Shown: piece by piece, positions 9,968 through 35,129 of the stretch
Layout of the letters: every line of letters begins with the position of its first letter
Numbering within the stretch: position 1 is the first letter of the stretch
The notes under the pieces: model-generated
Seen by the model: the letters and a program-made list of their open reading frames with translations, nothing else
What the model was told of the DNA's origin: nothing
Database searches by the model: none
Assembly (NCBI RefSeq): GCF_027889715.1
Contig: NZ_JAPJZH010000006.1
Location: 124,001-188,000, forward strand
DNA: 64,000 nt
Direction of reading: 5' to 3'
From: Allohoeflea poritis
GTDB taxonomy: Bacteria; Pseudomonadota; Alphaproteobacteria; Rhizobiales; Rhizobiaceae
Translations under genes and position numbers: made by a program

Positions 9968-9975
9968 GCTGGCTC

Positions 9976-10889: not shown

Positions 10890-10902
10890 ATTTTCTGCTT
10901 CC

Positions 10903-14013: not shown

Positions 14014-14034
14014 GAGATGACCTTCCTTTGCACT

Positions 14035-14946: not shown

Positions 14947-15166
14947 CGCCCGTCCTCGTCTCTCGCATTATTGCCGCTTGGGCCTGCATCATGAGCTGGT
15001 TCGCGAATGCGGCCGCGTCGGCGGCACTCAGTTCAATGTCGGCGAAGGGATCGCCCTCGAAATCAATGATCGTGATGTGCACGTTGTTGCAGTTGTCGCA
15101 GACAAACGAATGGATCGACTTGGCGACTTCCAGTTCAGCAAGATCATCATCGTCTTCGTCGGTCAT
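14924..15166 (-). CDS. Small acidic phage protein with CxxC
   Basis: An 80-residue protein starting MTDEDDDDLAELEVAKS, with VCDNCN as the only metal-like motif and a helical C-terminal half (AADAAAFANQLMMQAQ). It overlaps the J-domain gene by 4 bases and the Gp37/Gp68 gene by 23 bases. Function unknown. Confidence 0.5.
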   Translation of the reverse strand: MTDEDDDDLAELEVAKSIHSFVCDNCNNVHITIIDFEGDPFADIELSAADAAAFANQLMMQAQAAIMRETRTGDGRNKLH

Positions 15167-16935: not shown

Positions 16936-17219
16936 CACGCACTCCCTGCTGTACTGCTTCGCAAGTCGTCGACAACGAGCCGGTTGCCGATCTCCATATT
17001 CTTGGCGACAATCTCGATTGCCTCGTCCGGTGTCATTGTCCGCTGATCTTGCAGCGCAATGACGGTTCCCACCGTCTGAGCCAGACACGCCAAAATCTCT
17101 TCCGCAGACAGGTTGTCGCTGTATTTGCGCAGGGTCTTTCGGATCTGCTTGACGAGTGTGATGTGTTCCGGTCGAAGCTCCGCCGGGCGCAAGCGCCTTT
17201 CTGCCCTTGGGTCGCTCAT
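16935..17219 (-). CDS. Small helical prophage protein
   Basis: A 94-residue helical protein (MSDPRAERRLRPAEL). The central AEEILACLAQTVGTVIALQDQ could be a dimerisation helix. It overlaps the upstream gene by 4 bases and the downstream start by 1 base. Function unknown. Confidence 0.5.
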   Translation of the reverse strand: MSDPRAERRLRPAELRPEHITLVKQIRKTLRKYSDNLSAEEILACLAQTVGTVIALQDQRTMTPDEAIEIVAKNMEIGNRLVVDDLRSSTAGSA

Positions 17220-17506
17220 TTGACAGCCTTTGTGTTCTTGAGATCTGCCGGCAAAAGCCAGGCGGTGATCAGATGGTTGTCCTTGAAGATGAAAACGTGC
17301 CGGTGGCGCACCCGCAGCGTCGGGAGATCGGTTTCGGCGCGGTTCTTCCTGATCCAGTCGAGATACCGTCGAAGCCTGCCACTGAACGCCTCTGGCGCGG
17401 CTCCATGATCGAAAGCGTCGTTCGCCAGTTTCTCGACAGCCTTCATCGGCACGCCGAGGCGCTGGCGAACGCGCTTTGTTCCATGCCTGGTCAGGATCAC
17501 GGCCAT
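17216..17506 (-). CDS. RelE-like fold small phage protein
   Basis: A 96-residue basic protein starting MAVILTRHGTKRVRQRLGVP and ending with two strands (TLRVRHRHVFIFKDNHLITAWLL). This pattern (ILTRHGxKRVRxRLG, then a YLDWI helix and strand pair) is shared by small gut and alphaproteobacterial phage proteins resembling the RelE/ParE fold, without obvious catalytic residues. ATG 17506 overlaps the stop codon of the upstream reading frame (TGATG), so translation is probably coupled. It can also be read as the C-terminal part of a longer fused frame (see 17506-17728). Confidence 0.5.
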   Translation of the reverse strand: MAVILTRHGTKRVRQRLGVPMKAVEKLANDAFDHGAAPEAFSGRLRRYLDWIRKNRAETDLPTLRVRHRHVFIFKDNHLITAWLLPADLKNTKAVK

Positions 17507-17728
17507 CAAAAGTCCGGTTCTCCGTAATCGTCGTCGGTGTGATCTTCGAGTTGAGACTGAGGCCGGGATGTCAATGCGCAGCATGACGCCGCCGGCGACG
17601 TTCTCTTCGAACGCGCGGCCGACGCGGGTGCGGTGCCCCATCACTTCCAGAATGACCCAGCCAAACTCCTTCAAGTCGTTCGGCGATGTTTCGATATGCT
17701 GGTCGATGGCGGCTTGTTCATTTGTCAT
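17506..17728 (-). pseudogene. Small phage gene with apparent frameshift
   Basis: From ATG 17728 the frame reads a sensible N-terminus (FGWVILEVMGHRTRVGRAF, then VMLRIDIP), like small phage proteins often misnamed acetyltransferases. After about residue 55 it turns into an Arg-rich string and runs on into the next gene. In the next frame the same DNA reads QSQLEDHTDDDYGEPDF followed by a stop at 17506 overlapping the next ATG, which is the natural end. A one-base indel around 17560, or a sequencing error, is the simplest explanation. Confidence 0.45.
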
Positions 17729-17760
17729 GTTGAATCGTCTCTACAGTTGGGATGGAGGGT

Positions 17761-17988
17761 TCAGAACAGCACCAGCGCCATGACGGCGGAGGTGAAGCCG
17801 GCTATCGCCAGGAGCGATGATGCGGCGTGCGCGGCATAGCGATCGAACTGGATCAGGTATTGCGACGCGCACCCAAGCAGCGCGCTCAGCAAAGCGTAGA
17901 TCCGCACTGTTTCGCTGCCGAAGATCACAACCAGTGCAATGAAGGTCACGGCGAACGCCATTGCGCACAAAGCGCTAATCGCTTTCAT
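17761..17988 (-). CDS. Small membrane protein of early operon
   Basis: A 75-residue protein with three hydrophobic stretches (about 5-22, 28-44 and 55-74), starting MKAISALCAMAFAVTFIALV. No charged motif. It overlaps the downstream end of the zinc-finger gene (17975). A small phage membrane protein of unknown role. Confidence 0.5.
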   Translation of the reverse strand: MKAISALCAMAFAVTFIALVVIFGSETVRIYALLSALLGCASQYLIQFDRYAAHAASSLLAIAGFTSAVMALVLF

Positions 17989-18163
17989 GGGCTTGGTCCT
18001 CACGATTGATGAATGTCTGGAAGTCGTATCCGGCCTTGCACCGGGTGCAGCGCATCGCCAAAAGGCGGTCGCAGTCGAGCGCCGCGTCCGGGTGTGGCTC
18101 GTCGTAGAAAAACCACTTGTGGCCGCACGCCAGGCACCGCATGGGCTCCTTTTTTCGGCCCAT
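17975..18163 (-). CDS. Small zinc-finger protein, first gene of leftward early operon
   Basis: A 62-residue protein with two CxxC pairs (RCLACGHKW and RCTRCKAG), giving a four-Cys zinc ribbon. AAGGTG lies ahead of ATG 18163. A long open frame extends upstream through the tRNA remnant but is not coding. It is the first of about twenty leftward genes, so the early promoter should lie in 18164-18298. Confidence 0.6.
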   Translation of the reverse strand: MGRKKEPMRCLACGHKWFFYDEPHPDAALDCDRLLAMRCTRCKAGYDFQTFINREDQAHESD

Positions 18164-18298
18164 GGCACACACCTTATGAAACAGTCTCAGAAGTCCTCGG
18201 CGAAGGGCCCCGAGGTTAGCCAAAACGCGCGTAAGTATTTGATGTTTGACACGCGGTTCGCCACTTTTTAAAAATAAGTAGCTGAAAACAAAGGAATG
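18164..18298. promoter_or_regulatory. Right-end intergenic of prophage: likely early promoter region
   Basis: No gene. It must hold the promoter of the leftward early operon, though no strong leftward -35/-10 pair is obvious. A rightward TTGACA (18246-18251) with TAAAAA 17 bases further (18269-18274) is a near-consensus pair that points out of the prophage. CCTCGG/CCGAGG (18195-18200, 18210-18215) forms a hairpin in the leader of the operon. Confidence 0.4.
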
Positions 18299-18350
18299 TC
18301 TGCGGACTCTGACTCCGTTAGTCCTGGTTCGAATCCAGGTTCCCCAGCCA
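18299..18350 (+). other. attR: 3' half of tRNA-Gln(CUG) at the prophage end
   Basis: The sequence from the anticodon stem (GCGGA/TCCGT around the CTCTGAC loop, anticodon CUG) through the T arm, the TTCCCCA acceptor strand, G73 and CCA is intact. No D arm or 5' acceptor strand precedes it; phage-like AT-rich DNA does. This is the displaced 3' fragment left when an element integrates into a tRNA gene. The complete tRNA-Gln copy is predicted beyond the left window edge. Confidence 0.8.
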
Positions 18351-18416
18351 AATTTTTCAAAAATTATCTCAAGAGGTTCAGCCGGTTCAAGCCATGGCCT
18401 TTGCTTTGTTGAGCCG

Positions 18417-18788
18417 CTATTTGGATGCCCGGACCTCGCACTCGCCGGAATGGACGCGCTTCCATTTCCTGGTGCCGTTGACGCAGCCAGCCACGGCTCT
18501 TGCCTCGGCTTCCTGTGTCGTCCTGCGGTTGAGTGAATGACCGCAGATATATCCGGTCGAACCGAAACCGTAGATTGGTGTGGATGCATAGGCCGAGTGG
18601 CCCTTTGCCGCGACATATTCCTTGTAGGCCTTTGCGCACGGGCCGGTGCCGCGTGGCAGACGGCCCTGAACTTTTCCCTTTTGCCCGGAAAGGTCCTGGG
18701 CAACCGCGCCGGACAATTCCGGCGCAACCATGGCGCTTGTCGCAAGCATTTGCAGCGAAAGTACAGCAGACAGAAACAACCGGCTCAC
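18417..18788 (-). CDS. Exported small Cys-rich host protein
   Basis: A 123-residue protein with a signal peptide (residues 1-31, ending AVAQ). The mature part carries four Cys (PCAKAYKEY, ICGHSLN, GCVNG, ECEVRAS) that could form two disulfides. GTG 18788 is chosen because GGGGGA precedes it by about 5 bases. Similar small secreted proteins with a CGHSLNRRTTQEAEARA-type core occur in rhizobia with no known role. It is the first host gene right of the prophage, pointing towards the attachment site. Confidence 0.55.
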   Translation of the reverse strand: MSRLFLSAVLSLQMLATSAMVAPELSGAVAQDLSGQKGKVQGRLPRGTGPCAKAYKEYVAAKGHSAYASTPIYGFGSTGYICGHSLNRRTTQEAEARAVAGCVNGTRKWKRVHSGECEVRASK

Positions 18789-19166
18789 GTGATCCCCCAA
18801 AAGAATTGAACAACGGCATTGCCTGCAACTTATTCATGTATTTTTCATGATTCAACAACAATTTCAGCTTTTTAAACAATCACAGCAACGAAAAAGCTAT
18901 ACGCCAAAATCTTCTGACCGCCCTGCCAGGATAACTGCGGTCGATTGATCCTGTTTCGCGGTATCTCGCTCTAAACGCGAATATGTGATTGCGCTTAGAA
19001 AAGCTTTCCCAACGGAAATCTTTGTTGTATTGGCGGTATGTGACTATGAATTATCATGGATTTCCATGATAATTCATACAGAGAATACTGCTTAGATCGG
19101 AGAATTTACGCTCAAGGAAGTCAGTTTTCTCTGGTGCGGCCCGTATCAATACTACACAACGGAGAG
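18789..19166. other. Intergenic, AT-rich, contains long palindrome
   Basis: No credible gene. It holds the promoters of the flanking genes, an AT-rich stretch (18830-18900) and the palindrome at 19045-19078. No tRNA or other RNA gene is visible. Confidence 0.5.
19045..19078. repeat. Perfect 15-bp inverted repeat with 4-nt loop
   Basis: TATGAATTATCATGG (19045-19059) pairs perfectly with CCATGATAATTCATA (19064-19078) around ATTT. It lies about 90 bp upstream of the gene at 19167. No T-run follows, so it is not a canonical terminator; it could be an operator, a cruciform or an mRNA leader hairpin. Confidence 0.7.
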
Positions 19167-21966: not shown

Positions 21967-22310
21967 GACGATCCCGCCCGGGTTTGTTGTGACCGGCGCC
22001 ACGTCGAAACACTTGCCCGGCCATGCTTTCCCGATCTTCGAAACGGGAATCGATTTACATGCAAATGCAATTATATCGAAGTTTTATCCGCACGATGGCC
22101 CTCAAACGCGGCGACGGATTTCCGATTTCAGTCATATTTCTGAGTGAAAATCTGCGAAAAGGCCGTTCTCCGCTGGACTGCTCCATAAATATGCAAATGA
22201 AATATTTTAGATTTAAATATTGACATGCGATTTTTCCTTCACGCATAGTCCCGAAGGGGAGAAGGAGCGCGTATCACGGTCCGGGAAACCGGACTCACGC
22301 GAGTAAATTC
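21967..22310 (+). promoter_or_regulatory. Leader and promoter of the aromatic operon, with GNRA hairpin
   Basis: No gene is evident in these 344 bases. TTGACA at 22221-22226 followed 17-18 bases later by GCATAG/CATAGT is a plausible promoter. A GTCCGG-GAAA-CCGGAC hairpin at 22279-22294 lies just upstream of the start codon (22311), between a purine-rich GGGGAGAAGGAG stretch and the weak ribosome site. Confidence 0.5.
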
Positions 22311-23276
22311 ATGCCGGAGCTCAGGCTTGTCGTAACCAGCAGCGAGGCGGCCACACCGCAGATAAGGACCATCGAACTCGCGTCTGAGGACGGTGGCGCG
22401 CTGCCGCCCTATCGCGCCGGCGCCCATATCAAGGTGCAGCTTCCCGACGGCGGCGAACGCCCCTATTCCCTGGTCAACACCGATCCGTCGCACAACGCCA
22501 CGCAGAACCCGCGAAGCTACCGGCTTGGCGTGCGCCTCGAGGAAGACAGTGCCGGCGGATCAAGCTTCATGCACACGCTCAAGGCTGGCGATGTGATCAC
22601 GGCCGCCGGCCCTGAAAACCAGTTCGCGGTCAAGCAACAGGATGCCTCGATCGTCCTGATCGCCGGCGGCATCGGCATCACGCCGATCCTTTCAATGGCG
22701 AGCGAACTGACGGCCGCCGGGCGCCCGTTCGATTTTCATTATTGCGGCCGGACGCGGTCGGCACTTGCATTTGTGGAGCCCCTGCAGGCGATTTGCGGCG
22801 ATGCGCTGACGTTGCATTGCGACGACGAGCCGGATACCGCGGTCGATCTCGGCGCCGTTGTCAGCGCCGCCTCGTCCGGCGCACATCTTTATGTCTGCGG
22901 TCCGCGCGGCATGATCGAGGCAGTGCGCGAACGCGCCCATGAGGCCGGCATCGACAAGGATCACGTCCATTTCGAGCTGTTCAGCAAGCACGACGAACAG
23001 GTGGCCGGCGGCTCCTTCGAAGTCGAGATCAGTTCCACCGGCGAGGTGTTTACAATCCCGCCGGACCGGTCGATCATCGAGGTTCTGGAGGAAGCCGGCG
23101 TCGATCTCATCTATGATTGCCAGCGGGGCGATTGCGGTATCTGCCAGACAGGTGTGATTGACGGCGTGCCCGATCATCGCGATGTGATCCTCACCGATGA
23201 CGAACGCGCCGCCAATGATGTCATGCAGATTTGCGTATCGAGGGCGAAATCGGACAGGCTTGTCCTCGATCTGTAG
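22311..23276 (+). CDS. PDR/VanB-type oxygenase reductase (FMN, NADH, 2Fe-2S)
   Basis: A 321-residue three-domain reductase. An FMN-binding barrel has RPYSL at 50-54, an NAD-binding domain has IAGGIGITPILSM and YVCGPRGM, and a C-terminal plant-type ferredoxin domain holds the 2Fe-2S cluster with DCQRGDCGICQTG and a last Cys in ICVSRA. This is the layout of phthalate dioxygenase reductase. It should pass electrons from NADH to the Rieske oxygenase encoded next. First gene of the operon, 17 bases before the alpha subunit. Confidence 0.9.
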   Translation: MPELRLVVTSSEAATPQIRTIELASEDGGALPPYRAGAHIKVQLPDGGERPYSLVNTDPSHNATQNPRSYRLGVRLEEDSAGGSSFMHTLKAGDVITAAGPENQFAVKQQDASIVLIAGGIGITPILSMASELTAAGRPFDFHYCGRTRSALAFVEPLQAICGDALTLHCDDEPDTAVDLGAVVSAASSGAHLYVCGPRGMIEAVRERAHEAGIDKDHVHFELFSKHDEQVAGGSFEVEISSTGEVFTIPPDRSIIEVLEEAGVDLIYDCQRGDCGICQTGVIDGVPDHRDVILTDDERAANDVMQICVSRAKSDRLVLDL

Positions 23277-23293
23277 ACCGGGAGGAAGCAGCC

Positions 23294-24625
23294 ATGGGCA
23301 GGTATAGCGGCAATGCGGCATCGATCGAAGCGCTGATCCGGCCGACTCAGGTGCATCGCGACGTCTATATCGACGACGAGGTGTTCGATCTGGAGATGAA
23401 GCACCTGTTCGCAAACACATGGGTGTTTGTCGGCCATGACAGCCAGGTACCCAACAAGGGCGACTATTTCGCCACCGAGATCGGCCGCCAGCCGGTGCTG
23501 ATGGCGCGCCACACGGATGGCGACGTCTATGTGATGCACAATCGCTGCCCGCACAAGGGAACGAAGATCGTCATCGACCGGGAAGGCAATACCGGAAAGT
23601 TCTTCCGCTGCCCCTATCATGCCTGGTCGTTCAAGACCGATGGCTGCCTGCTCGCGATCCCCCTGAAGAAGGGCTACAAGGATACCGGGCTCGAAGACAG
23701 CGAGGCGGCCAGGGGCCTGGCGCCGGTCGGCGCGGTGAAGAATTATCGCGGCTTCATCTTCGCACGGCTCAATCCGGAAGGCCCCGGCTTCGACGAATTC
23801 TTCGGCGATTCGTTGAGTTCCCTGGACAACATGATCGACCGCTCCCCGGAGGGCCGGCTGGAGGTCGCCGGTCCGCCGCTGCGTTACATGCACCAGTGCA
23901 ACTGGAAAATGCTGGTCGAAAACCAGACGGATACCTGCCACCCGATGGTCGCCCATGAGAGTTCGGCAGGAACCGCCGTCAAATTGTGGGAGTCACTGGA
24001 CAAACCGGAAGGCACGACGAAACCGATGGCGATGGAGGTGATCGCGCCCTTCATGTCGCCTTACGAATTCTTCGAGGATATGGGCATCCGCACCTGGCCG
24101 AACGGCCACGGCCATACGGGCGTGCATCACTCGATCCACTCCGACTATTCTGCGGTGCCCGGCTATTTCGATCAGATGGTCGAAGCCCATGGCGAGGAAC
24201 GGGCGAAAGCGATCCTCGGCGAGAACCGGCACAACACCGTCTACTTCCCCAACATCATGATCAAGGGGCCGATCCAGCAATTGCGGATCTTCATCCCGCT
24301 GGCCGCCAACAAGACGCTGGTGGAAAGTTATATCTACCGGCTCGTCGGCGCGCCGGACATGCTGCTGCAACGGACCGCCATGTACAACCGGCTGATCAAC
24401 GCGCCGACCTCGGTCGTCGGCCATGACGACCTTGAAATGTACGAGCGGGCGCAGGAGGGCCTGCATTCGGACGGGCTGGAATGGGTCAATGTCCAGCGGC
24501 TTTACGCCGAGGGCGAGGACATGGACGAGACGGCGGTCGAAAACGGCACGACCGAACGGCAGATGCGCAACCAGTTCCACGCCTGGAAGAAATACATGAC
24601 GATGACGATGGGGGCGGCGCAATGA
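23294..24625 (+). CDS. Rieske non-haem iron oxygenase, alpha subunit
   Basis: A 443-residue ring-hydroxylating oxygenase large subunit. The Rieske ligands are Cys85-x-His87 (RCPHKG) and Cys106-x2-His109 (RCPYHAW). The mononuclear iron site is Asp213, His216 and His221 in ENQTDTCHPMVAH, with the bridging Asp in place. GGGAGGA precedes ATG 23294; an upstream in-frame start at 23231 overlaps the reductase. The substrate cannot be read from these residues. With the CoA ligase, thiolase, DUF35 and cyclase neighbours it fits oxidation of an arylacetate such as indole-3-acetate. Confidence 0.9.
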   Translation: MGRYSGNAASIEALIRPTQVHRDVYIDDEVFDLEMKHLFANTWVFVGHDSQVPNKGDYFATEIGRQPVLMARHTDGDVYVMHNRCPHKGTKIVIDREGNTGKFFRCPYHAWSFKTDGCLLAIPLKKGYKDTGLEDSEAARGLAPVGAVKNYRGFIFARLNPEGPGFDEFFGDSLSSLDNMIDRSPEGRLEVAGPPLRYMHQCNWKMLVENQTDTCHPMVAHESSAGTAVKLWESLDKPEGTTKPMAMEVIAPFMSPYEFFEDMGIRTWPNGHGHTGVHHSIHSDYSAVPGYFDQMVEAHGEERAKAILGENRHNTVYFPNIMIKGPIQQLRIFIPLAANKTLVESYIYRLVGAPDMLLQRTAMYNRLINAPTSVVGHDDLEMYERAQEGLHSDGLEWVNVQRLYAEGEDMDETAVENGTTERQMRNQFHAWKKYMTMTMGAAQ

Positions 24626-25104
24626 GCTTTCCCTCCCGCGACGAGTTGATCGACTTCGTCTATGAAGAAGCGCGCATGATCGATGACGGCCGTTTCGACG
24701 AATGGCTCGATCTGTGGACCGAGGACGGCTATTACTGGATGCCGCTGGACTACAAGCAGGAAGACCCGCATCTGGTGACGTCGTTGCTCTACGAGGACGA
24801 ATTCCTGCGCAAGCTGCGCGTCGAGCGCCTGAAGGGCGAGCGCACCTTCTCGCAAAAGCCGAAGAGCCGCTGCCATCACGTGCTGTCGCGGCCGTTCGTC
24901 GACGAGATGGACCGTGAGAAGGGTCTTTTCGTCACCCACACGCCGTTCCACTATGTCGAGACGCGGCTTGACGAGCAGTTCCTGCTTGCCGCCACTGCGC
25001 GCCACGAGCTGGTTCTCGTCGGTGAGGAACTCAAGATCCGGTTGAAGCGTGTCGACCTGCTGAACAGCGACGCCGCGTTCGGCAATATCCAGCTCTTCCT
25101 GTAA
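24622..25104 (+). CDS. Rieske oxygenase beta subunit
   Basis: A 160-residue small subunit of the NTF2-like fold (DELIDFVYEEARMIDDGRFDEWLDLWTEDGYYWMP), typical of alpha3-beta3 ring-hydroxylating dioxygenases. It starts in an ATGA overlap with the alpha subunit, ensuring co-translation. It is structural and carries no redox centre. Confidence 0.9.
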   Translation: MSFPSRDELIDFVYEEARMIDDGRFDEWLDLWTEDGYYWMPLDYKQEDPHLVTSLLYEDEFLRKLRVERLKGERTFSQKPKSRCHHVLSRPFVDEMDREKGLFVTHTPFHYVETRLDEQFLLAATARHELVLVGEELKIRLKRVDLLNSDAAFGNIQLFL

Positions 25105-25113
25105 AACGGCCAT

Positions 25114-26745
25114 ATGAACGACAACCAGTTCCCAGTCCGAACGGTTTACGAGCTTTTTGCGGCAGCGGCCCGCCGCTGGCCGGAGCGGCCGTTCCTGAGC
25201 ATTCTGCCGGAAACGGCGGATGCCTACGGTATCGAGGCCGGCGAGCGAAGCTATCGCGACATGCTCGACGCGGTCGACATGATCCGGGCCCAATATGCGA
25301 AGGCAGGATACCGCGCCGGCGAGCGCGTGATGCTGCTGCTGGAGAACCGCCCGTCCTATTTCCTGCACTGGTTCGCGCTGAATGCCCTTGGCCTTTCGGT
25401 GGTGCCGGTCAATCCGGATCTCCAATCGGCGGAGCTGGCCTATATGGCCGGCCACGCGGAGCCGGTTCTGGCGATCGCAACGGCCAACCGCATCGCCGAC
25501 CTCGAACAAGCGAGCCGGGCTTCGGGCGTCGGCTTTCCGGTCATCAGCGGCGATATGGAGTTACCCGCCCTGCGGGCGGATGAGATGGGCGATGTCGAGC
25601 CTTCGCCTTCCCGCGAAGCTGCGATGCTCTATACATCCGGAACGACCGGCAACCCGAAGGGCTGCGTGCTCTCCAACGCCTATTTCCTGCATGCCGGGCA
25701 CTGGTATGCCCATGCCGGCGGTGTCTGCGCTCTGCATGAAGAGGGCGAGCGCATGATCACGCCGCTGCCCATGTTCCACATGAATGCCATGGCCTGTTCG
25801 CTGATGGCGATGATCACCGTCGGCGGCTGCCTCATCGTGCTCGATCGCTTTCATCCCAAGAGCTGGTGGCAAAGCGTGCGCGACAGCCGCGCCACATGCC
25901 TGCATTACCTCGGCGTCATGCCCTCGATCCTGATGAAGGCGGAGGCATCTGCGCAGGATCGCGATCATTCGGTGCGATTCGGCTTCGGGGCCGGCATCGA
26001 TCCCAGGCTGCATATACCCTTCGAGGAGCGCTTCGGCATCCCGCTGGTGGAGGCCTGGGCGATGACCGAGACCGGTGCGGGCGCGGTGATCGCGGCCAAT
26101 CGCGAGCCGCGCCGCCGCGGCGAAAGCTGCCTCGGCCGCCCGGAGGCCGAAGTCGAGACGCGTATCGTTCTTGACGACGGATCGGAGGCTGCGGCAGGTG
26201 AGCCCGGCGAATTGCTTGTGCGGCGCGCCGGACCCGATCCGCGCTACGGCTTTTTTTCCGAGTATTACAAGGACCCGCAGGCCACCACTGATGCCTGGGA
26301 CGACGGATGGTTCCACACCGGCGATATCGTCATGCGGGATGAGGCAGGCGATTTCTTTTTCGTCGACCGCAAGAAGAACGTGATCCGCCGCAGCGGCGAG
26401 AACATCGCCGCCGTCGAGGTGGAGACGGTACTGATGCAGCACTCGGACATCCGCGCGGTAGCGGCTGCAGCCGCGCCCGATGCGCTGCGCGGCGACGAGG
26501 TGCTTGCCTGCATCGTGACGGACGGAGCGCGCTCCGAGGAAGCCGCCCGGGCGATCGTGACCTGGGCGCTGGAGCGCATGGCCTATTACAAGGCGCCCGG
26601 ATATGTCGCCTTTATCGACGCGCTGCCCCTGACGCCGACCCAGAAGATCCAGCGGGGCGAACTGAAGAAACTCGTGCCGTCGCTGCTCGCCGATCCCGCG
26701 ACCGTGGATACGCGGACCATGAAGAAGCGCCTGGTGCCGTCGTGA
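25114..26745 (+). CDS. Class I adenylate-forming acyl/aryl-CoA ligase
   Basis: A 543-residue ANL-superfamily ligase. P-loop YTSGTTGNPKGC, AWAMTETGAG (A5), GWFHTGDIVMRD (A7/A8) with the hinge, and a C-terminal PTQKIQRGELKK region carrying the catalytic Lys are all present. It would activate a carboxylate with ATP and CoA. Nine bases separate it from the beta subunit gene, and its stop overlaps the next start. The proposed substrate is the oxygenase product (dioxindole-3-acetate), by inference only. Confidence 0.9.
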   Translation: MNDNQFPVRTVYELFAAAARRWPERPFLSILPETADAYGIEAGERSYRDMLDAVDMIRAQYAKAGYRAGERVMLLLENRPSYFLHWFALNALGLSVVPVNPDLQSAELAYMAGHAEPVLAIATANRIADLEQASRASGVGFPVISGDMELPALRADEMGDVEPSPSREAAMLYTSGTTGNPKGCVLSNAYFLHAGHWYAHAGGVCALHEEGERMITPLPMFHMNAMACSLMAMITVGGCLIVLDRFHPKSWWQSVRDSRATCLHYLGVMPSILMKAEASAQDRDHSVRFGFGAGIDPRLHIPFEERFGIPLVEAWAMTETGAGAVIAANREPRRRGESCLGRPEAEVETRIVLDDGSEAAAGEPGELLVRRAGPDPRYGFFSEYYKDPQATTDAWDDGWFHTGDIVMRDEAGDFFFVDRKKNVIRRSGENIAAVEVETVLMQHSDIRAVAAAAAPDALRGDEVLACIVTDGARSEEAARAIVTWALERMAYYKAPGYVAFIDALPLTPTQKIQRGELKKLVPSLLADPATVDTRTMKKRLVPS

Positions 26746-27917
26746 GCGCAACGCGAAAGGGTTATGACGGGGTGGTTGCCGCCGTACCGGTGACAGTGCC
26801 CTATGAGCGTTTTTCGAAGGAATCCGCGCATTGGTGGATTGCCCGCGCATTGAGGCAGTTGTGTGCGCAGGCGGGCGTCAAACCGTCCGAAATCGACGGC
26901 TTTTGCGTGTCCAGCTTCACGCTCTTTCCCGACACCGCCGTGGGTCTCACCCAGCATCTCGGACTGACGGCACGCTGGCTCGACCATATCCCGTTTGGCG
27001 GCGCAAGCGGCATAACGGCCCTGCGGCGGGCAGCGCGCGCGGTACAGGCTGGCGACACACGCATGGTCGCCTGCCTTGCCGGCGATACAAACCATGTCGA
27101 CAGTTTCCGGCGCACGCTTTCAAGCTTCAGCCGTTTCGCACAGGATGCTTCCTACCCTTACGGCTCGGGCGGGCCGAATGCCTGTTTCGCGCTTCTGACG
27201 GATCATTATATGCGTCATTATGGAGCAAAGCGTCAGGATTTCGGCGCCATATGCGTGGCGCAGCGACAGAACGCCCTGCGCAATCCGCATGCGATCATGA
27301 AGAAACCGCTCAGCCTTGAGCAATATATGGCTGCGCGGGCGGTCTCCGACCCGATCGCCCTGTTCGACTGCGTGATGCCGGTGGCCGGCGCCGAAGCCTT
27401 CCTGGTGATGCGCGAGGAAGATGCTCGGGCCGCCGGCCTGCCCCACGCCCATATCCGCTCGACCATCGAGCGCCACAATGCCTTTGCCGACGATCCGATC
27501 CAGATGCGCGGCGGCTGGGCGATGGATGTCGACGAACTTTACGGCATGGCAGGCTTGATGGCCGATGGAATTGACGTGCTGCAGACCTATGACGACTATC
27601 CGGTCATCGTGATGATGCAGTTCGAGGATCTCGGTTTTTGCGAGAAAGGCGAAGCGCCGCAATTCGTGCGCGCGCATGACCTGACGATCGACGGCGATTT
27701 TCCGCACAATACAAGCGGCGGCCAATTGTCCGCCGGACAGGCAGGCGCCGCCGGCGGCTATATCGGCTTGGTTGAGGCGATCCGTCAGGTGACGGGCATA
27801 GCAGGGCCGACACAGGTGAAAGACGCCGCGACGGCAATGGTATCCGGTTTCGGCATGATCAATTACGACCGTGGCCTTTGTTCCGGCGCGGCAATTCTCA
27901 GCGGTGGCACAGCATGA
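26742..27917 (+). CDS. Thiolase-fold (SCP2/Ltp2-like) protein lacking Cys and His
   Basis: A 391-residue thiolase-superfamily protein starting at GTG in a GTGA overlap with the ligase. The nucleophile motif that should read C-x-S-G is FGGASG (85-90), with Gly at the Cys position. The C-terminal GHP motif is AGQAG (331-335), with Gln for His. Tyr283/Tyr286 lie in QTYDDYP. Losing Cys and His is seen in Ltp2, an aldol lyase that works with a DUF35 partner in steroid degradation, and the next gene encodes exactly such a partner. A retro-aldol cleavage of a beta-hydroxyacyl-CoA is the best guess; ordinary thiolysis is unlikely. Confidence 0.75.
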   Translation: MSATRKGYDGVVAAVPVTVPYERFSKESAHWWIARALRQLCAQAGVKPSEIDGFCVSSFTLFPDTAVGLTQHLGLTARWLDHIPFGGASGITALRRAARAVQAGDTRMVACLAGDTNHVDSFRRTLSSFSRFAQDASYPYGSGGPNACFALLTDHYMRHYGAKRQDFGAICVAQRQNALRNPHAIMKKPLSLEQYMAARAVSDPIALFDCVMPVAGAEAFLVMREEDARAAGLPHAHIRSTIERHNAFADDPIQMRGGWAMDVDELYGMAGLMADGIDVLQTYDDYPVIVMMQFEDLGFCEKGEAPQFVRAHDLTIDGDFPHNTSGGQLSAGQAGAAGGYIGLVEAIRQVTGIAGPTQVKDAATAMVSGFGMINYDRGLCSGAAILSGGTA

Positions 27918-29170
27918 CCGATCCGCTCAGCCCCCCGCCCCGCAAAAACCCGCAGAAACGCACCCGCGTGCCGACCCGGCCGTCGCATGTGCGCAGCCGC
28001 GCTGCACTCGGCTTTGCGGCGGCCGCGGCCGAGGGCCGTTTCATGCTGCAGACCTGCGCCGAATGCGGAGCCGTGCAATATCCGCCGCGCGATGCCTGCG
28101 GCTCGTGCCTGTCCGTTGAACTCAACTGGACGGATGTCTCGCCGGCCGGCCGGCTGATTGCCGACACCACCGTGCGCATCAGCACGAATGTCTATTTCCG
28201 CGAGCGCACGCCATGGCGTGTCGGAACGGTGCGGCTCGATATCGGGCCGTCGGTCATGTGTCACGTCCACGGCGATGTCGCCGTCGACGATCCGGTACGG
28301 CTTTCCATCAAGCTGGACAAGTCCGGCCAGGGCGTGATGTTTGCCCTGCCGCAGAAAGCGACGCCGAATATGGAGGACGATCCTCACATGCGCGAAATGA
28401 CCTGCGATCCCAAGCACCGGCGCGTGCTGATCACCGATGCCCGCAACGAGAACGCACCGGCCCTGGCGCAGGCGCTTGCCGAAGCCGGGGCATCGCTCAT
28501 CTTTGTCGGCGAGGCCGAAAGCTGGCACCCCTACCCGCACCGCGCGACGCTGGAAAAAATCGCCAATGTCGAAATCATGCCGCTCGACGTGACCGACACC
28601 GCGTCGGTGACCGAGCTTGCCGCCGAGATCGGCGGCAAGACCGATATTCTCATCAACAATGCCCGTTTCGTGCGACCCGGCGGCATCATGGACCGTGGCG
28701 ACGTCATATTCTCGCGCGACGAGATGGAGGTGAATTTCTTCGGCATGATGCGGCTTGCCCAGGCCTTCGGGCCGGCAATGCGCGGCCGCGGCGCAGACGG
28801 CGACAACAGCGCCACGGCCTGGGTGAATATCCTGTCGGTCTATGCCTGGTCGAACATGCCGGAATTCGGCGCATTCTCTGCCTCGAATGCGGCGGCACTC
28901 TCGCTTTCGCAGTGCCTGCGCGCCGAATTGCTGCAGGGCGGGGTGCGGGTGATGAATGTGTTCACCGGCCCGACCGAGGATGAATGGCACCAGCCGCTGC
29001 CGCCGCCCAAGGTGCTGCCGGCGGCACTCGCCCGGGCCGTGGTCGGCGGGCTGAAGGACGGGCTTGAAGATGTCTTCGTCGGCGATGTGGCGAAGGATCT
29101 TATCGACCGCTGGCGGGCCGGCCCGAAAATCCTCGAACGGGAAATGCTCGACACAAGAGGCCAGGGATGA
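27914..29170 (+). CDS. DUF35 OB-fold protein fused to degenerate SDR domain
   Basis: A 418-residue protein. Residues 40-145 are a DUF35/OB-fold acyl-CoA-associated domain with a rubredoxin-like zinc knuckle (Cys48, Cys51, Cys62, Cys65). Residues 170-405 form an SDR-like Rossmann domain that has lost its catalytic signature. The TGxxxGxG loop reads TDARNENAP, the YxxxK pair is Phe321/Asn325 (FSASN), and NNAG is NNAR. The first half would dock the thiolase-like protein, as DUF35 domains do. The SDR half is probably structural or binds CoA. ATGA overlaps join it to both neighbours. Confidence 0.8.
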   Translation: MTDPLSPPPRKNPQKRTRVPTRPSHVRSRAALGFAAAAAEGRFMLQTCAECGAVQYPPRDACGSCLSVELNWTDVSPAGRLIADTTVRISTNVYFRERTPWRVGTVRLDIGPSVMCHVHGDVAVDDPVRLSIKLDKSGQGVMFALPQKATPNMEDDPHMREMTCDPKHRRVLITDARNENAPALAQALAEAGASLIFVGEAESWHPYPHRATLEKIANVEIMPLDVTDTASVTELAAEIGGKTDILINNARFVRPGGIMDRGDVIFSRDEMEVNFFGMMRLAQAFGPAMRGRGADGDNSATAWVNILSVYAWSNMPEFGAFSASNAAALSLSQCLRAELLQGGVRVMNVFTGPTEDEWHQPLPPPKVLPAALARAVVGGLKDGLEDVFVGDVAKDLIDRWRAGPKILEREMLDTRGQG

Positions 29171-29976
29171 CCACGACCGCTGATCCAGCCGCCCTGCTGA
29201 CGGGCCTTGCGCAATCGCTGTCGTCCGGCGCGGTCAAGGTTGTGGACCTTACCCACACGCTGGACCCGGATTTCCCGGTCATCGTGCTGCCACCGGAATT
29301 CGGCCAGTGCGCCGGCTTTCGCATGGAAGAAGTCTCCGCCTATGATCACCGGGGACCGGCCTGGAAATGGAACAATTTTACCTGCAGCGAACATACCGGC
29401 ACCCATTTCGACGCGCCGGTCCACTGGATCTCCGGGCGCGATCTTCCGAACAACAGCGTCGACACCATCCCGGCCGACAAATTCGTCGGTCCGGTGTGCG
29501 TGATCGACTGTTCGGAAGGCGCATCTCAAAATGATGATTTCGAGCTGACGCCGGAGATCATCACCGCCTGGGAGGCAAAGCACGGACGGATCCCCGAGGA
29601 TTGCTGGGTGCTGATGCGCACCGACTGGTCGAAGCGGCGCGGCGACGCCTATCTCAACATGCGCGAGGACGGCCCGCATTCGCCCGGTCCGACGCCGGAG
29701 GCGGTTCGGCTGCTCGTCGAGGAGCGTAATGTTCGCGGCTTCGGCACGGAAACCGTCGGCACCGATGCCGGCCAGGGCATGCACTACACGCCGCCCTACC
29801 CGGCCCACTACATCCTGCATGGTGCCGGATGCTATGGCCTGCAGTGCCTCAACAATCTCGACCGTTTGCCGCCGACCGGCGCTCTGCTGTGCACCGCGCC
29901 GCTGAAGATCAAGCAGGGAACGGGCAGCCCGCTGCGTGTCATGGCGCTCGTTGCCGATAATGGAGCGGTGTCATGA
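29167..29976 (+). CDS. Cyclase-family amidohydrolase, isatin-hydrolase-like
   Basis: A 269-residue member of the cyclase/kynurenine formamidase superfamily. The metal-binding motif HTGTHFDAPVHW at 76-87 (His76, His80, Asp82, His86) is intact, and the WKWNNF and ETVGTDAG blocks are typical of isatin hydrolases as I remember them. Family members hydrolyse cyclic amides or imides with Mn or Zn. In this operon it could open isatin to isatinate. The name is a family-level call and the substrate is inferred. Confidence 0.8.
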   Translation: MTTTADPAALLTGLAQSLSSGAVKVVDLTHTLDPDFPVIVLPPEFGQCAGFRMEEVSAYDHRGPAWKWNNFTCSEHTGTHFDAPVHWISGRDLPNNSVDTIPADKFVGPVCVIDCSEGASQNDDFELTPEIITAWEAKHGRIPEDCWVLMRTDWSKRRGDAYLNMREDGPHSPGPTPEAVRLLVEERNVRGFGTETVGTDAGQGMHYTPPYPAHYILHGAGCYGLQCLNNLDRLPPTGALLCTAPLKIKQGTGSPLRVMALVADNGAVS

Positions 29977-30701
29977 GCGGGCAAATGACCGCCGTCATCA
30001 CCGGCGGCAACAAGGGCATCGGCGCCGATATCGCCAGGCGCATGCTGGACGAAGGCTATGCTGTCATATCGGTGGCGCGACACGCACCGGACTTTGCCCA
30101 TGAGCGGCTGTCTTCGGTGGAGGCCGACCTGCTCGATCCCGAGGCTGTCAGCGCGGCGGCAGCGGAAATCGCCGCAAACCACAAGGTCACGCATCTCATC
30201 CAGAATGCCGGCCTGATCTGGCCGAACCTGATCGAGGATGCAAAACCATCGGACATTACCGGCCTTGCGCAATTGCATCTCGGCTCGGCCCTCACCCTGC
30301 TCCAGGCGGTGCTGCCGGGTATGAAGGAGCGCCGCTTTGGGCGCGTGATCTTCAACGGCTCGCGTGCCGCGCTGGGCGTTGCCACCCGCACCGCCTACAG
30401 CGCTTCGAAGGCCGGTATGATCGGCATGGCGCGCACCTGGGCGCTGGAACTCGCGCCGCACCAGATCACCGTCAACGTGGTCGCGCCGGGTCCGATCCTG
30501 ACCGACAATTTCTGGGGCATCATCCCGAAGGGTAGCGAAAAGGAGGCCGAGCTCGCGACGCGCATTCCCGTGGGACGGCTCGGCACGGTCGAGGATGTGG
30601 CCAACGCCTTCATGTTCTTTGCGGACGAGAAGAGCAGTTTCGTCACCGGCCAAACGCTCTATGTTTGCGGCGGCGCCAGCGTCGGCACGGCGATCCTCTG
30701 A
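29973..30701 (+). CDS. SDR-family NAD(P)-dependent dehydrogenase
   Basis: A 242-residue classical SDR with intact motifs: GGNKGIG (cofactor loop near residue 11), QNAG, Ser in FNGSRAA and the YSASK catalytic pair. It overlaps the cyclase gene by 4 bases and is the last gene of the operon. It may oxidise or reduce an intermediate such as dioxindole/isatin, or serve the CoA-bound stage. The substrate is unknown. Confidence 0.85.
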   Translation: MSGQMTAVITGGNKGIGADIARRMLDEGYAVISVARHAPDFAHERLSSVEADLLDPEAVSAAAAEIAANHKVTHLIQNAGLIWPNLIEDAKPSDITGLAQLHLGSALTLLQAVLPGMKERRFGRVIFNGSRAALGVATRTAYSASKAGMIGMARTWALELAPHQITVNVVAPGPILTDNFWGIIPKGSEKEAELATRIPVGRLGTVEDVANAFMFFADEKSSFVTGQTLYVCGGASVGTAIL

Positions 30702-30749
30702 CTGCGGCAAACAAATTTCCGACGCAAACAGCTCCTAACGGTCGACCCC

Positions 30750-31508
30750 ATGAGAGGATTGTTCAGCCGGCTTCCGATGACGATGCGAACAACATTGTTT
30801 TCCGCCGCCTTTGCCGCCGTCGTCATCGCCGGCGCATCGGTCTACCTGCTCCGGTCTCTGATACCCGGCACGGCCAATCTCGACGCGGTTCGTGAAATCG
30901 TCGTTCCGGAACTGGAAAGCCGGCTTGCCGAACAGGGTCTTCATTTCGGCGCGCCGATCTTCATCCGCATCTTCAAGGCGTCCAGCGAACTGGAACTTTG
31001 GGTGCAAGACGGCGCGCAGTATAGCCTCTTCAAGACCTATCCGATCTGCAGTTATTCCGGCGGGCTGGGGCCGAAACTGATGGAGGGCGACCGGCAGTCG
31101 CCGGAGGGCTTCTATTCGGTCTCGGCCCGGCAGCTCAATCCGAACAGCAGCTATCACCTTTCCTTCAATCTCGGTTTCCCCAACCGCTATGACCGGGCTC
31201 ACGGGCGCACCGGCAGCTTCCTGATGGTGCACGGCAAATGCGTTTCGATCGGCTGCTACGCGATGACCGACGGGGGCATCGAGGAGATTTATCTCATCGC
31301 CGAGGCGGCGCTGAGCGGCGGACAGAGTGCATTCGACGTGCATGTGTTTCCGTTCCGCATGACGGAAGAAGCGCTTACCGACTATGCCGGTTCGCAATGG
31401 ATTAGTTTCTGGCAGAACCTCAAGGAAGGTCACGACCTATTCGAGGCGACACGGGTGCCGCCCACCACCGGCGTGGTTGACGGGCGTTATGCCTTCAATG
31501 GCGGGTGA
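30750..31508 (+). CDS. YafK-type L,D-transpeptidase
   Basis: A 252-residue protein with an N-terminal membrane anchor or signal (residues 10-36) followed by an L,D-transpeptidase (YkuD) domain. The catalytic block HGKCVSIGCYAM has the His and Cys, and GFPNRYDRAHGRTG lies upstream. YafK-like enzymes release or remodel lipoprotein-peptidoglycan links. It stands alone, 48 bases after the SDR gene, and is probably not part of the aromatic pathway. Confidence 0.85.
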   Translation: MRGLFSRLPMTMRTTLFSAAFAAVVIAGASVYLLRSLIPGTANLDAVREIVVPELESRLAEQGLHFGAPIFIRIFKASSELELWVQDGAQYSLFKTYPICSYSGGLGPKLMEGDRQSPEGFYSVSARQLNPNSSYHLSFNLGFPNRYDRAHGRTGSFLMVHGKCVSIGCYAMTDGGIEEIYLIAEAALSGGQSAFDVHVFPFRMTEEALTDYAGSQWISFWQNLKEGHDLFEATRVPPTTGVVDGRYAFNGG

Positions 31509-31602
31509 GGCGATCAGCTCAGCCTGAGGGCGATGTCCTTGCACTCATGCACCGGCACGCGGTAGAGCAGCCGAACGACGCATTTCAACGACGGGATAGA
31601 AA

Positions 31603-32388
31603 ATGGATCTGGGAATTACCGGTAAGACGGCGCTTGTTCTCGGCGCATCGCAGGGCATCGGCCGCGCAATCGCCGACACGCTGGCGCAGGAAGGCGCCAA
31701 TGTCGTGCTCGTCGCACGCAACGCGGAGGCACTCGAAGCGATTGCGGCTGACATTGCGCGCAAGCATGGCGTGACCGCAACGCCCTGCCCGGTCGACCTG
31801 TCGGACCCGCAGGCCGTCGCGGCCTTCTGCACAAGGGTGGAAAACGAATTCAAACCCGACATGCTCGTCAACAATGCCGGCGGGCCGCCGCCATCCCCAT
31901 CGACCGGCGTTTCCGACGAGGTCTGGCACAATTCGACGCAGATGATGCTGTTCAGCATCGTGCGGGTCACGGAAGCCGCGCTTCCGGCCATGAAGGCGCG
32001 CGGCTGGGGCCGCATCGTCGCGGTCGGCTCCTCCGGCATCGTCCAGCCGATTCCGAACCTTTCCGTTTCGAACACCATCCGCGGCGCCGTCGCCGGCTTC
32101 TGCAAGTCACTGTCGGCCGAGGTCGCCGCCGACGGCATCACGGTCAACATGATCCTGCCCGGCAAGATCGACACCGACAGGCTCAGTCGGCTTGACTCCG
32201 CCAGAGCAGAGCGGGAGGGCAAATCCGTCGATGCGGTTCGTGCTTCGGCGCAGGCCGACCTGCCGATCAAGCGTTACGGCCGGCCCGAGGAATTCGCCAA
32301 GGTGGCGGTTTTCCTGCTTTCCGATGCCGCAGGCTACGTAACGGGCCAGATGACCCGCGTCGACGGCGGGCTGATCCGCAGCATCTGA
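31603..32388 (+). CDS. SDR-family protein with SN-x-x-R in place of YxxxK
   Basis: A 261-residue SDR with normal cofactor loop GASQGIG (residues 14-20), NNAGG and the GSSGI serine. The catalytic YxxxK region reads LSVSNTIRGAV, so Tyr is replaced by Ser and Lys by Arg. This SN-x-x-R variant is a recognised SDR subfamily in my memory (YvaG-like), so it may be an active reductase with altered chemistry rather than a broken gene. A 94-base gap separates it from the L,D-transpeptidase. Confidence 0.75.
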   Translation: MDLGITGKTALVLGASQGIGRAIADTLAQEGANVVLVARNAEALEAIAADIARKHGVTATPCPVDLSDPQAVAAFCTRVENEFKPDMLVNNAGGPPPSPSTGVSDEVWHNSTQMMLFSIVRVTEAALPAMKARGWGRIVAVGSSGIVQPIPNLSVSNTIRGAVAGFCKSLSAEVAADGITVNMILPGKIDTDRLSRLDSARAEREGKSVDAVRASAQADLPIKRYGRPEEFAKVAVFLLSDAAGYVTGQMTRVDGGLIRSI

Positions 32389-32416
32389 GGGCCTGCGACC
32401 GGCGAAACTCCGGTGG

Positions 32417-33669: not shown

Positions 33670-33959
33670 ATGACACGTATGCCGGATCGGAGCTCCGCGC
33701 TTCCGGTCCGGAACAAGGGTGCGGGATCGTCGCATCTGCCCGAAAAGAATTTCCATAAAGACCAATCAACGACCTCCGACAGGATGGGCTACCCGGCTGC
33801 AGCCTTTGGCAGGCCGCCGATGTCGCCCCAGCGCTTGCCGTCTTTATGCGTCTCGAATAAATGTCGTGTGACACTTTTCCCGTTTACGCCCCGTGTCATG
33901 TCAATTGCGCGCAAGACGCATCGGACACGGCGGGCTCCACCAATCCCATAGGGTCAATA
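33670..33959. other. Intergenic between small protein and M20 hydrolase
   Basis: These 290 bases hold no convincing gene. In-frame sequence upstream of ATG 33960 is open but has no ribosome site and unrelated composition. The region presumably carries the promoter of the hydrolase; no clear palindrome or riboswitch seen. Confidence 0.4.
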
Positions 33960-35129
33960 ATGTACATAAAGAACAACCGCATCGCCGATCTTGTCCCGGA
34001 AGTAACCGAGTGGCGCCGCTGGCTGCACCGTCATCCGGAGCTTTTGTTCGATCTGCCGGAAACATCCCGCTTCGTCACCGAACGCCTTCGCGAGATCGGT
34101 GTCGACGAGATTTACGAGAACGTCGCCGAAACCGGTGTCGTCGCCATAATCAACGGTGCGGGCGACGGGCCGACAATCGGGCTGCGCGCCGATATGGATG
34201 CCTTGCCGATCGAGGAGGCCTCGGATGCCGGACATGCTTCCGAAACGCCCGGCAAAATGCATGCGTGCGGGCATGACGGCCACAGCGCCATGTTGCTGGG
34301 CGCCGCCAAGTACCTTGCGGAGACACGCAATTTTTCCGGAAAGGCCGTACTGATTTTCCAGCCCGCCGAAGAAGGTGGCCTGGGCGCCAAGGCGATGGTG
34401 GATACCGGCCTTTTCGAGCGTCTCGGACTTCACGAGATTTACGGCATGCACAACATGCCGAACATGCCTGTCGGCGAGTTCGGGCTGTGTGACGGCCCGA
34501 CACTGGCCGCGACCGATTTCTTCTATATCGACATTGAGGGTCTCGGCGGACATGCATCCCAGCCCCATAAATGCGTCGATCCGCTGGCGGCGGCGAATGC
34601 CATCTATAACAGCTTCCAATCGATCATCACCCGCAACACCGATCCGGCAAAGAACGGGCTGATCTCGATCACCGCGCTTCAGGCGGGCGAGGCCAACAAT
34701 GTGATTCCGCAAACGGCGACGATGAAAGGCACGGTCCGCAACCTGCACGAGGACACCCGCGACATCATCGAACGGCGCATGCACGAGATCGTCGCGGGCG
34801 TTGCCGAAAGCCACGGGGTGAAGGCGACACTCAACTATGAGCGGCTCTGCCCGGTAACGGTCAATCACAGCGACCAGGTCGATCGCGCGGCAGAGGCCGC
34901 CATCGGGGTGGCCGGTGCGGAAAATGTCGACCGCGAACAACCGGCACGGCTGGGCGGTGAAGACTTCTCCTACATGCTGCAGGAGCATCCCGGCGCCATC
35001 ATATTTATCGGCAACGGGGACTCGGCCGGATTGCATCACCCGGCTTATGATTTCAATGACGACGCAATTCCGTATGGCATCGCCTTCTGGGCAAAGATCG
35101 TCGAGGACCGGCTGCCGCTGGCGCGATAG
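33960..35129 (+). CDS. M20 amidohydrolase (hippurate / IAA-amino acid hydrolase type)
   Basis: A 389-residue zinc aminoacylase of subfamily M20D. The metal ligands lie in GLRADMDALPIEE, GKMHACGHDGHS, FQPAEEGGLGAK and LGGEDFSYMLQ, with the dimerisation domain HASQPHKCVDPLAAANAIY. These enzymes release an acid from an N-acyl amino acid; plant IAA-amino acid hydrolases and bacterial hippurate hydrolases belong here. Its place a few kb after the proposed indole-acetate operon makes release of auxin from conjugates plausible. ATG 33960 has no strong ribosome site. Confidence 0.85.
   Translation: MYIKNNRIADLVPEVTEWRRWLHRHPELLFDLPETSRFVTERLREIGVDEIYENVAETGVVAIINGAGDGPTIGLRADMDALPIEEASDAGHASETPGKMHACGHDGHSAMLLGAAKYLAETRNFSGKAVLIFQPAEEGGLGAKAMVDTGLFERLGLHEIYGMHNMPNMPVGEFGLCDGPTLAATDFFYIDIEGLGGHASQPHKCVDPLAAANAIYNSFQSIITRNTDPAKNGLISITALQAGEANNVIPQTATMKGTVRNLHEDTRDIIERRMHEIVAGVAESHGVKATLNYERLCPVTVNHSDQVDRAAEAAIGVAGAENVDREQPARLGGEDFSYMLQEHPGAIIFIGNGDSAGLHHPAYDFNDDAIPYGIAFWAKIVEDRLPLAR

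Follow-up and report, generated by a model that had tools for sequence, protein, structure and literature searches.

An iad-like auxin-degradation operon of Allohoeflea poritis and a probable retro-aldol route for removal of the indole-3-acetate side chain

Introduction

The closest described system to the operon reported here is the iad-like locus of Variovorax paradoxus CL14/CL014 (PMC9613470), which degrades the auxin indole-3-acetic acid (IAA). According to a preprint (PMC12633357), IadCDE turns IAA into a C10H9NO3 compound, proposed to arise via an epoxide, and IadJ then yields dioxindole-3-acetate (C10H9NO4); another paper, whose assignment the preprint disputes, gives 2-oxindole-3-acetate as the IadCDE product (PMC10374108). 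In the current study, a 64,000-nucleotide stretch of Allohoeflea poritis DNA (contig NZ_JAPJZH010000006.1, positions 124,001 to 188,000, forward strand; hereafter "the window", with coordinates counted from its first letter) was analyzed by computation. Positions 22311-30701 of the window carry genes resembling iadC to iadJ, and we propose that the thiolase-fold protein IadG and the DUF35 domain of IadH probably remove the side chain by retro-aldol cleavage.

How the side chain is lost in the described pathway has been deduced from mutants and from annotation. Deletion of iadF, iadG, iadH or iadI leads to accumulation of C10H9NO4 (the formula of dioxindole-3-acetate), and C8H7NO2 (the formula of dioxindole) builds up without iadI; based on annotation, the roles of ketothiolase (IadG) and alcohol dehydrogenase (IadH) were assigned, with reductive removal of the side chain (PMC12633357). 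Dioxindole, isatin and isatinic acid (isatinate) were detected in Variovorax cultures, and iadA and iadB correspond to IorA and IorB (PMC9613470). The words DUF35, aldolase and OB-fold are absent from the main text of PMC12633357, and our search of open-licence papers found no proposal of an aldolase role for IadG or DUF35 in auxin breakdown. The cluster called iad in PMC8383072 was set aside, as it is an iac-type Pseudomonas cluster and thus a different locus type.

Results

Eight intact, co-directional plus-strand genes were found to fill 22311-30701 in the open reading frame (ORF) list. They are tightly packed, five of the seven gene junctions being 4-bp overlaps and the remaining two gaps of 17 and 9 bp. 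Their Pfam matches follow the order FNR/Fer2 reductase, Rieske plus Ring_hydroxyl_A, Ring_hydroxyl_B, AMP-binding ligase, Thiolase_C_1, zf-ChsH2 plus OB_ChsH2_C plus SDR, Cyclase, and SDR. When these genes were compared with a Variovorax-type locus (L115), the same order was observed, with identities of 45% (C), 58% (D), 49% (E), 58% (F), 65% (G), 52.5% (H), 64% (I) and 52% (J). L115 came from a query of 399 genomes, sampled from the order of Achromobacter G001, with IadD (9o71); one genome gave a match of 94% identity and was on this ground taken as Variovorax. Judged by sequence, the locus is almost certainly an iad-like auxin-degradation operon, and the operon itself adds one more case to the iad-like loci already known, its host being related to Nitratireductor. 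An earlier, sequence-only reading of this DNA had described a candidate operon with members similar to those of iad-type loci, and this was borne out. Its gene inventory also stood, except that the DUF35-SDR fusion had gone unmentioned and the last SDR gene had been left out of its scheme.

Conservation was scored across the best 80 of 529 loci, a set that is therefore biased to close relatives. Alignment rows include the window, giving 81 rows (80 plus 1) for IadG, 75 (74 plus 1) for IadH, 45 (44 plus 1) for IadD and 44 (43 plus 1) for IadJ. In IadG, the site of the thiolase nucleophilic Cys is Gly87 in 81/81 rows, with Gly likewise in Sal and Ltp2, and Gln333 replaces the His of the thiolase GHPxG motif, again in 81/81. 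The "Cys- and His-less" thiolase of the sequence-only reading is thus correct for the catalytic positions only. Moreover, Tyr283-Asp284-Asp285-Tyr286 is invariant in all 81 rows; the same place is occupied by YDCY in CtSal and YDHF in TcLtp2, where the Tyr serves as base (PMC12329534). The CtSal active-site residues Gln347 and Gln352 are kept in the alignment as Gln328 and Gln333 of IadG.

Structure and phylogeny were examined as well. The AlphaFold model of IadG has a mean pLDDT (predicted local distance difference test) of 83.7, and a Foldseek search with it returned at ranks 1-3 Sal-Shy(DUF35) (9myr) and Ltp2-ChsH2(DUF35) (6ok1), the first two entries. VIA Z scores for the model were 44.7 for 9myr, 43.4 for 4u4e and 42.7 for 6ok1. 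In the tree, IadG joins Ltp2 (85/77) and Sal (89/85). With Asp285 at the motif position of His in Ltp2 and Cys in Sal, IadG is filed here as a putative third active-site variant, neither a Sal nor an Ltp2, that would work like both.

The product of the next gene, IadH, appears to supply the DUF35 partner domain. All four Cys of its zinc ribbon are present in 75/75 rows. The first Gly of the TGxxxGxG cofactor motif in its SDR domain is Asp or Asn in 75/75 rows, the catalytic Lys is found in 6/75 rows (lost in 69/75), and Tyr and Lys never occur together (0/75). IadH of the Variovorax-type locus, which is 52.5% identical to that of the window over nearly the full length, reads TDGKTETG and FSASK at those sites. 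The IadJ SDR served as a control for this degeneration in the same operons, since its active site is intact: TGxxxGIG is present in 43/44 rows (with one gap), and the catalytic Tyr and Lys in 43/44 each. In IadH, the mean majority frequency was 0.68 in the SDR domain, compared with 0.76 in the zinc ribbon and 0.64 in the OB fold; the SDR domain is therefore still conserved, which suggests a structural role. Foldseek with IadH returned SDRs, and the DUF35 assignment comes from Pfam. Taken together, these data suggest that the SDR domain is a structural remnant and no dehydrogenase.

A relative of IadG was also observed outside an iad locus in Achromobacter G001 (contig C4:82000-95000, L129), where 3351-7756 holds genes for a CoA ligase, an MFS transporter, a YDDY protein and a zinc-ribbon protein. 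The YDDY paralogue is 42% identical to IadG and is flanked by the transporter (with the ligase before it) and by the zinc-ribbon protein of 113 residues, whose best Pfam match was zf-ChsH2 (E 7.4e-4; 19.7 bits, below the gathering threshold of 23.2). No SDR was found among the seven genes scanned there, the paralogue included. On this thin evidence, it looks as if the DUF35 part were the partner that matters. The Achromobacter locus possibly encodes a second aldolase of the YDDY type for another substrate.

The cyclase gene, whose product the sequence-only reading had called isatin-hydrolase-like, encodes an orthologue of isatin hydrolase A. IadI is 79.3% identical (203/256) to the enzyme of Labrenzia aggregata (5nna), and all 11 active-site residues named in PMC6117287 (Mn ligands and pocket Trp, Tyr, Asp and His) are identical in IadI. 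The pocket is thus complete, which ties the product to isatin.

Neighboring genes were scored next to IadG in the homologous loci, 8 of the 80 having too little downstream DNA. In 72/72 loci with at least 2.3 kb of downstream DNA, G is followed by H and I, the three genes being adjacent. The gene order recurs more often than by chance: where the DNA on either side sufficed (63 loci), 33 loci carry all of C, D, F, G, H, I and J (E was not scored); 3 lack C only, 2 are other mixtures, and 25 have G-H-I without close C, D, F or J, eight of these with a more distant ligase (42-55%). Bradyrhizobium japonicum SZCCT0153 carries the genes in two clusters on one contig, C-D-E-F-J (IorA lying close by) and G-H-I, separated by about 19 kb. 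The Bradyrhizobium G-H-I loci had been considered as cases lacking IadD, which was rejected, as SZCCT0153 and two further Bradyrhizobium genomes have IadD.

Thirty-six loci have no D above 55% identity in the DNA compared, and the presence of IadD was examined genome-wide in 14 of the genomes concerned, some of them metagenome-assembled genomes and perhaps incomplete. An IadD-like gene was not found at E 1e-60 in 9 of these 14 G-H-I genomes, in which other auxin oxygenases were not searched for. In one of the nine, Rhizobium lusitanum Opo-234, the best IadD match was 30%. In five loci (L023, L030, L060, L063 and L078), G-H-I stands beside a CoA ligase of 45-47% identity, and no IadD-like gene was found in the genome at the same threshold. 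Where no IadD was found, the module would have to obtain its substrate by a different route, perhaps through another oxygenase or by uptake of oxidized auxin.

The oxygenase of the window was compared with known Rieske families. The alpha subunit matched the IadD structures 9o71 and 7yls at E about 1e-178 (1.5e-178 for IadD), and the next family at 2.5e-39; phthalate dioxygenase (9jp5) gave 2.2e-33 against the 1.5e-178 of IadD. In the tree, which had been put forward as a check of the sequence-only reading, the subunit falls within the IadD clade (support 95/90) with naphthalene dioxygenase outside. A naphthalene- or benzoate-type oxygenase was rejected, as the benzoate model scored 210 bits (cut-off 781) and the anthranilate model 166 (cut-off 672), and the tree agrees. 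Nine residues of the IAA pocket of IadD are listed in PMC10374108. Eight of them are identical in the window oxygenase, and all seven Fe-S and Fe ligands are retained; the ninth pocket residue, Leu211, is replaced by Gln, which is also the residue in 39 of the 45 alpha subunits (window included). The same clade includes the second Rieske protein of L115 and one Achromobacter paralogue, in both of which His311 is changed, while it is kept in the window. The second Rieske pair of L115 (alpha and beta, reverse complement, 13425-15202) is 50% and 47% identical to the window genes; its alpha subunit has Gln at the His311 position, yet groups with IadD. The proposal that a Rieske oxygenase leads to dioxindole-3-acetate thus held as regards the IadD type, but not for the oxygenase alone, as IadJ is reported to be needed too in Variovorax (PMC12633357).

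Candidate genes for isatinate turnover were found elsewhere in the host genome (5.58 Mb). An IorA/IorB pair lies on another contig (C33:284000-300000, L128, at 3580-10262); its IorA is 75-76% identical to IorA of two iad loci (L035 and L080), and next to the pair lie a MarR-type ORF and another cyclase resembling isatin hydrolase, 49% identical to IadI. This set probably represents iadAB of the pathway, located on another contig. Isatinate is 2-aminophenylglyoxylate, and the IorAB step may be comparable with that of phenylglyoxylate oxidoreductase; by this analogy, IorAB might convert isatinate to 2-aminobenzoyl-CoA. C8H7NO3 accumulates strongly in strains overexpressing iadC-K2 (PMC12633357), which would agree with such a step if those strains lack iadAB. 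The anthranilate 1,2-dioxygenase model TIGR03228 had no match above its cut-off in the host genome.

The features of the operon are listed in Table 1.

Table 1. Positions of the operon genes and of selected motifs within the window
Feature	Position	Strand	Basis
IadC-like reductase (flavin/NAD-binding plus 2Fe-2S ferredoxin domain)	22311..23276	+	Pfam Fer2, NAD_binding_1; 45% to L115 iadC position
IadD-like Rieske oxygenase alpha subunit	23294..24625	+	IadD clade; 58.7% to IadD 9o71
IadE-like Rieske oxygenase beta subunit	24622..25104	+	Best PDB match 7yls_A (IadE), E 4.6e-44
IadF-like acyl-CoA ligase	25114..26745	+	AMP-binding E 2.6e-59; 58% to L115 iadF position
IadG thiolase-fold protein, putative retro-aldolase subunit	26742..27917	+	65% to L115; structure matches 9myr, 6ok1
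IadG Gly87, thiolase nucleophilic-Cys site	27000..27002	+	Gly in 81/81 rows
IadG YDDY motif, residues 283-286	27588..27599	+	Invariant 81/81; alignment
IadG Gln328 and Gln333	27723..27740	+	Equivalent to CtSal Gln347, Gln352; both invariant 81/81
IadH: DUF35 (zinc ribbon plus OB fold) fused to SDR domain	27914..29170	+	zf-ChsH2, OB_ChsH2_C, adh_short (Pfam)
IadH DUF35 four-Cys zinc ribbon, C-x2-C-x10-C-x2-C	28055..28108	+	Four Cys in 75/75 rows
IadH degenerate SDR domain, residues 167-418	28412..29167	+	First TGxxxGxG Gly lost 75/75; Tyr+Lys 0/75
IadI isatin hydrolase A orthologue	29167..29976	+	79.3% to LaIHA 5nna; 11/11 named active-site residues
IadJ-like SDR, active site intact	29973..30701	+	52% to L115 iadJ position; predicted to make dioxindole-3-acetate

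By its thiolase, the closest named relative among the best 80 of the 529 loci is Nitratireductor sp. XY-223 (88% identical). The two genomes have in common a DNA block from 22185 to 31518 (85.5% identity). Beyond this block, no DNA match to XY-223 was found over the 19 kb compared, except for a gene at 31600-32390 that lies 4.4 kb further on in that genome. The IadG thiolase is present in 4 of 7 other genomes of the same genus (E 1e-120). The operon is thus a unit with a patchy distribution.

Several neighboring genes were noted. A YkuD-type gene at 30750-31508 (best model DpaA/YafK, 252 bits against a cut-off of 365) lies inside the conserved block; a role for it in the pathway is not obvious. 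An M20 amidohydrolase gene (33861-35129) lies 3 kb downstream of the operon; an M20 gene is near G-H-I in L023 too, and L063 has a 34% match to that of the window. The M20 enzyme could release auxin or oxidized auxin from amino-acid conjugates. What seems to be a second cluster for aromatic degradation lies at 44227-51178, with genes for a GntR regulator, an intradiol dioxygenase with a catechol-dioxygenase N-terminus, a TRAP-type solute-binding protein, a nitroreductase and an FAA hydrolase. Judged by eye, positions 1-19000 hold prophage-like genes, mostly on the minus strand (helicase, methyltransferase-like, Gp37-like).

Discussion

By homology with Variovorax, the reductase and Rieske oxygenase (C, D and E) would oxidize IAA, and the SDR J, as published for Variovorax, would complete the oxidation to dioxindole-3-acetate, from which ligase F is predicted to make the CoA ester. 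In this ester, C3 (the beta carbon) is a tertiary alcohol, which chemically rules out thiolysis, as no beta-keto group is possible there. In its place, the thiolase-fold protein G and the DUF35 domain of H would cleave dioxindole-3-acetyl-CoA by a retro-aldol reaction into isatin and acetyl-CoA, with Tyr283 of IadG acting as base, Asp285 as the likely acid and IadH as a non-redox partner. IadI, by its strong homology, would hydrolyze isatin to isatinate, and the dioxindole of Variovorax would be a by-product of isatin reduction and not an obligate intermediate. Side-chain removal by a YDDY variant of the DUF35-dependent aldolases is, in our judgment, probable. A thiolase-DUF35 aldolase had been suggested by the sequence-only reading, and the active-site sequence, the partner domain, the structure comparison and the gene linkage favor it. 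The division of genes in SZCCT0153 was also counted for this scheme, which predicts it, one cluster making dioxindole-3-acetyl-CoA and the other using it. So were the C10H9NO4 that builds up in all four mutants (iadF, iadG, iadH and iadI; PMC12633357) and the isatin and isatinate of Variovorax cultures (PMC9613470).

Several observations weigh against retro-aldol cleavage. The uncharacterized thiolase 4u4e scores between Sal and Ltp2 with the IadG model, within 1 Z of Ltp2, and tree support for the grouping with Ltp2 and Sal is moderate, with long branches. Among NCBIfam models, IadG scores best with that of an acetyl-CoA acetyltransferase subfamily (200.9 bits, below the cut-off of 421), a lipid-transfer-protein subfamily coming second. 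Asp285 (81/81) stands where the known aldolases have His (Ltp2) or Cys (Sal), and the proposed oxyanion residue Gln161 of CtSal aligns with Pro145 of IadG; therefore, the mechanism cannot equal that of the known aldolases. Model confidence falls below a pLDDT of 50 at residues 130-142, 201-207, 328-336 and 374-377, covering the Gln328/Gln333 loop. For IadH, the closest SDR structure (5u4s) also lacks the Tyr and yet was solved with NADP; therefore, a missing Tyr is not by itself proof against cofactor binding. Finally, for the C8H7NO2 of the iadI mutant (PMC12633357), the retro-aldol reading requires other enzymes to reduce isatin.

In the published proposal (PMC12633357), IadG would act as a genuine ketothiolase and IadH as an alcohol dehydrogenase, the two removing the side chain reductively together with IadF to give dioxindole. 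C8H7NO2 accumulates both in the iadI mutant and in a strain expressing iadCDEFGH_JK2 (PMC12633357), and the thiolase fold of IadG and the SDR matches of IadH fit the assigned names. However, the proposal is unlikely, given that every IadG row has Gly at the Cys site and Gln for the GHPxG His, that no IadH row has the cofactor Gly or the Tyr-Lys pair, the Variovorax-type protein with its TDGKTETG and FSASK included, and that, on chemical grounds, a quaternary beta carbon offers no beta-keto substrate for thiolysis. It is somewhat less likely still that cleavage is retro-aldol but an active IadH SDR domain reduces isatin to dioxindole within the complex, IadI then acting after re-oxidation or on dioxindole. 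Dioxindole was found in Variovorax cultures (PMC9613470), conservation of the IadH SDR domain is close to that of the DUF35 part, and 5u4s binds NADP despite its lost Tyr; against this stand the first cofactor Gly, lost in all 75 rows, the Lys, lost in 69, and the orthology of IadI with isatin hydrolase, for which reduction of its substrate would be wasteful.

It may also be asked whether IAA is the substrate at all. An operon of a related type that acts on a different compound, indole-acetic-acid-like or aryl-acetic, would fit the distinct Rieske pair in the L115 locus, by which the family is seen to diversify, and the nine of 14 genomes in which G-H-I occurs and an IadD-like gene was not found at E 1e-60. 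Nevertheless, eight of the nine IAA-contacting residues are as in IadD, the ninth is Gln in most of the alpha subunits aligned, the second Rieske protein of L115 differs at His311 as well, and the complete pocket of IadI ties the product to isatin; we therefore regard another substrate as improbable. With retro-aldol cleavage as the preferred reading of the side-chain step, a wider proposal may be made tentatively: G-H-I could be a self-standing module, a non-steroid YDDY DUF35 aldolase with a pseudo-SDR, that cleaves dioxindole-3-acetyl-CoA to acetyl-CoA and isatin and converts the latter to isatinate, feeding on auxin oxidized by plants or others where no IadD was found. In the present window, the module would be combined with IadCDEFJ to consume IAA.

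What would be new here is the side-chain step, for which a route other than the published one is suggested by the sequence; the type of operon was already known from soil bacteria. If retro-aldol cleavage is correct, the published assignments of IadG as ketothiolase and IadH as alcohol dehydrogenase, both needed for anthranilate formation, would be corrected, and the range of DUF35-dependent aldolases would be widened to non-steroid substrates and to a third active-site motif. It would also explain cleavage at a quaternary carbon and make dioxindole a by-product. The scheme offers direct tests for a pathway that is now being engineered into root bacteria.

In comparison with known systems, the operon agrees with the iad locus of V. 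paradoxus CL14/CL014 (the iad-like type of PMC9613470) in all eight genes and in their order, at 45-65% identity to the Variovorax-type genome. A difference is that IorAB (iadA/iadB) is on a separate contig. Among 54 MarR_2 and 46 MarR matches in the genome, from a scoring that covered 150 of 186 MarR_2 and 150 of 206 MarR candidates, none lies on the operon contig; such a regulator beside the genes is usual for iad-like loci but was not taken as defining. No iadK2-like gene was noticed beside the operon in the ORF list, no search aimed at such a gene having been made. The iac loci, as in Pseudomonas putida 1290, likewise break down IAA through dioxindole-3-acetate, but they start with IacA/IacE and end in catechol (PMC9613470), whereas the operon matches iad content. 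At the 11 named residues, IadI does not differ from isatin hydrolase A (5nna), while elsewhere about one residue in five differs. Like Ltp2-ChsH2 and Sal-Shy, IadG has the thiolase fold, Gly at the Cys site, the Tyr of YDxF/Y and both Gln residues of Sal, with a predicted DUF35 partner, zinc ribbon included, encoded by the next gene. Unlike Ltp2 (His) or Sal (Cys), it has Asp within the motif, and Gln161 of CtSal is not conserved. Moreover, DUF35 is fused to a degenerate SDR domain in IadH, whereas Shy carries a MaoC domain (PMC11321319), and the predicted substrate of IadG is an oxindole CoA ester in place of the steroid substrate of Ltp2 and Sal.

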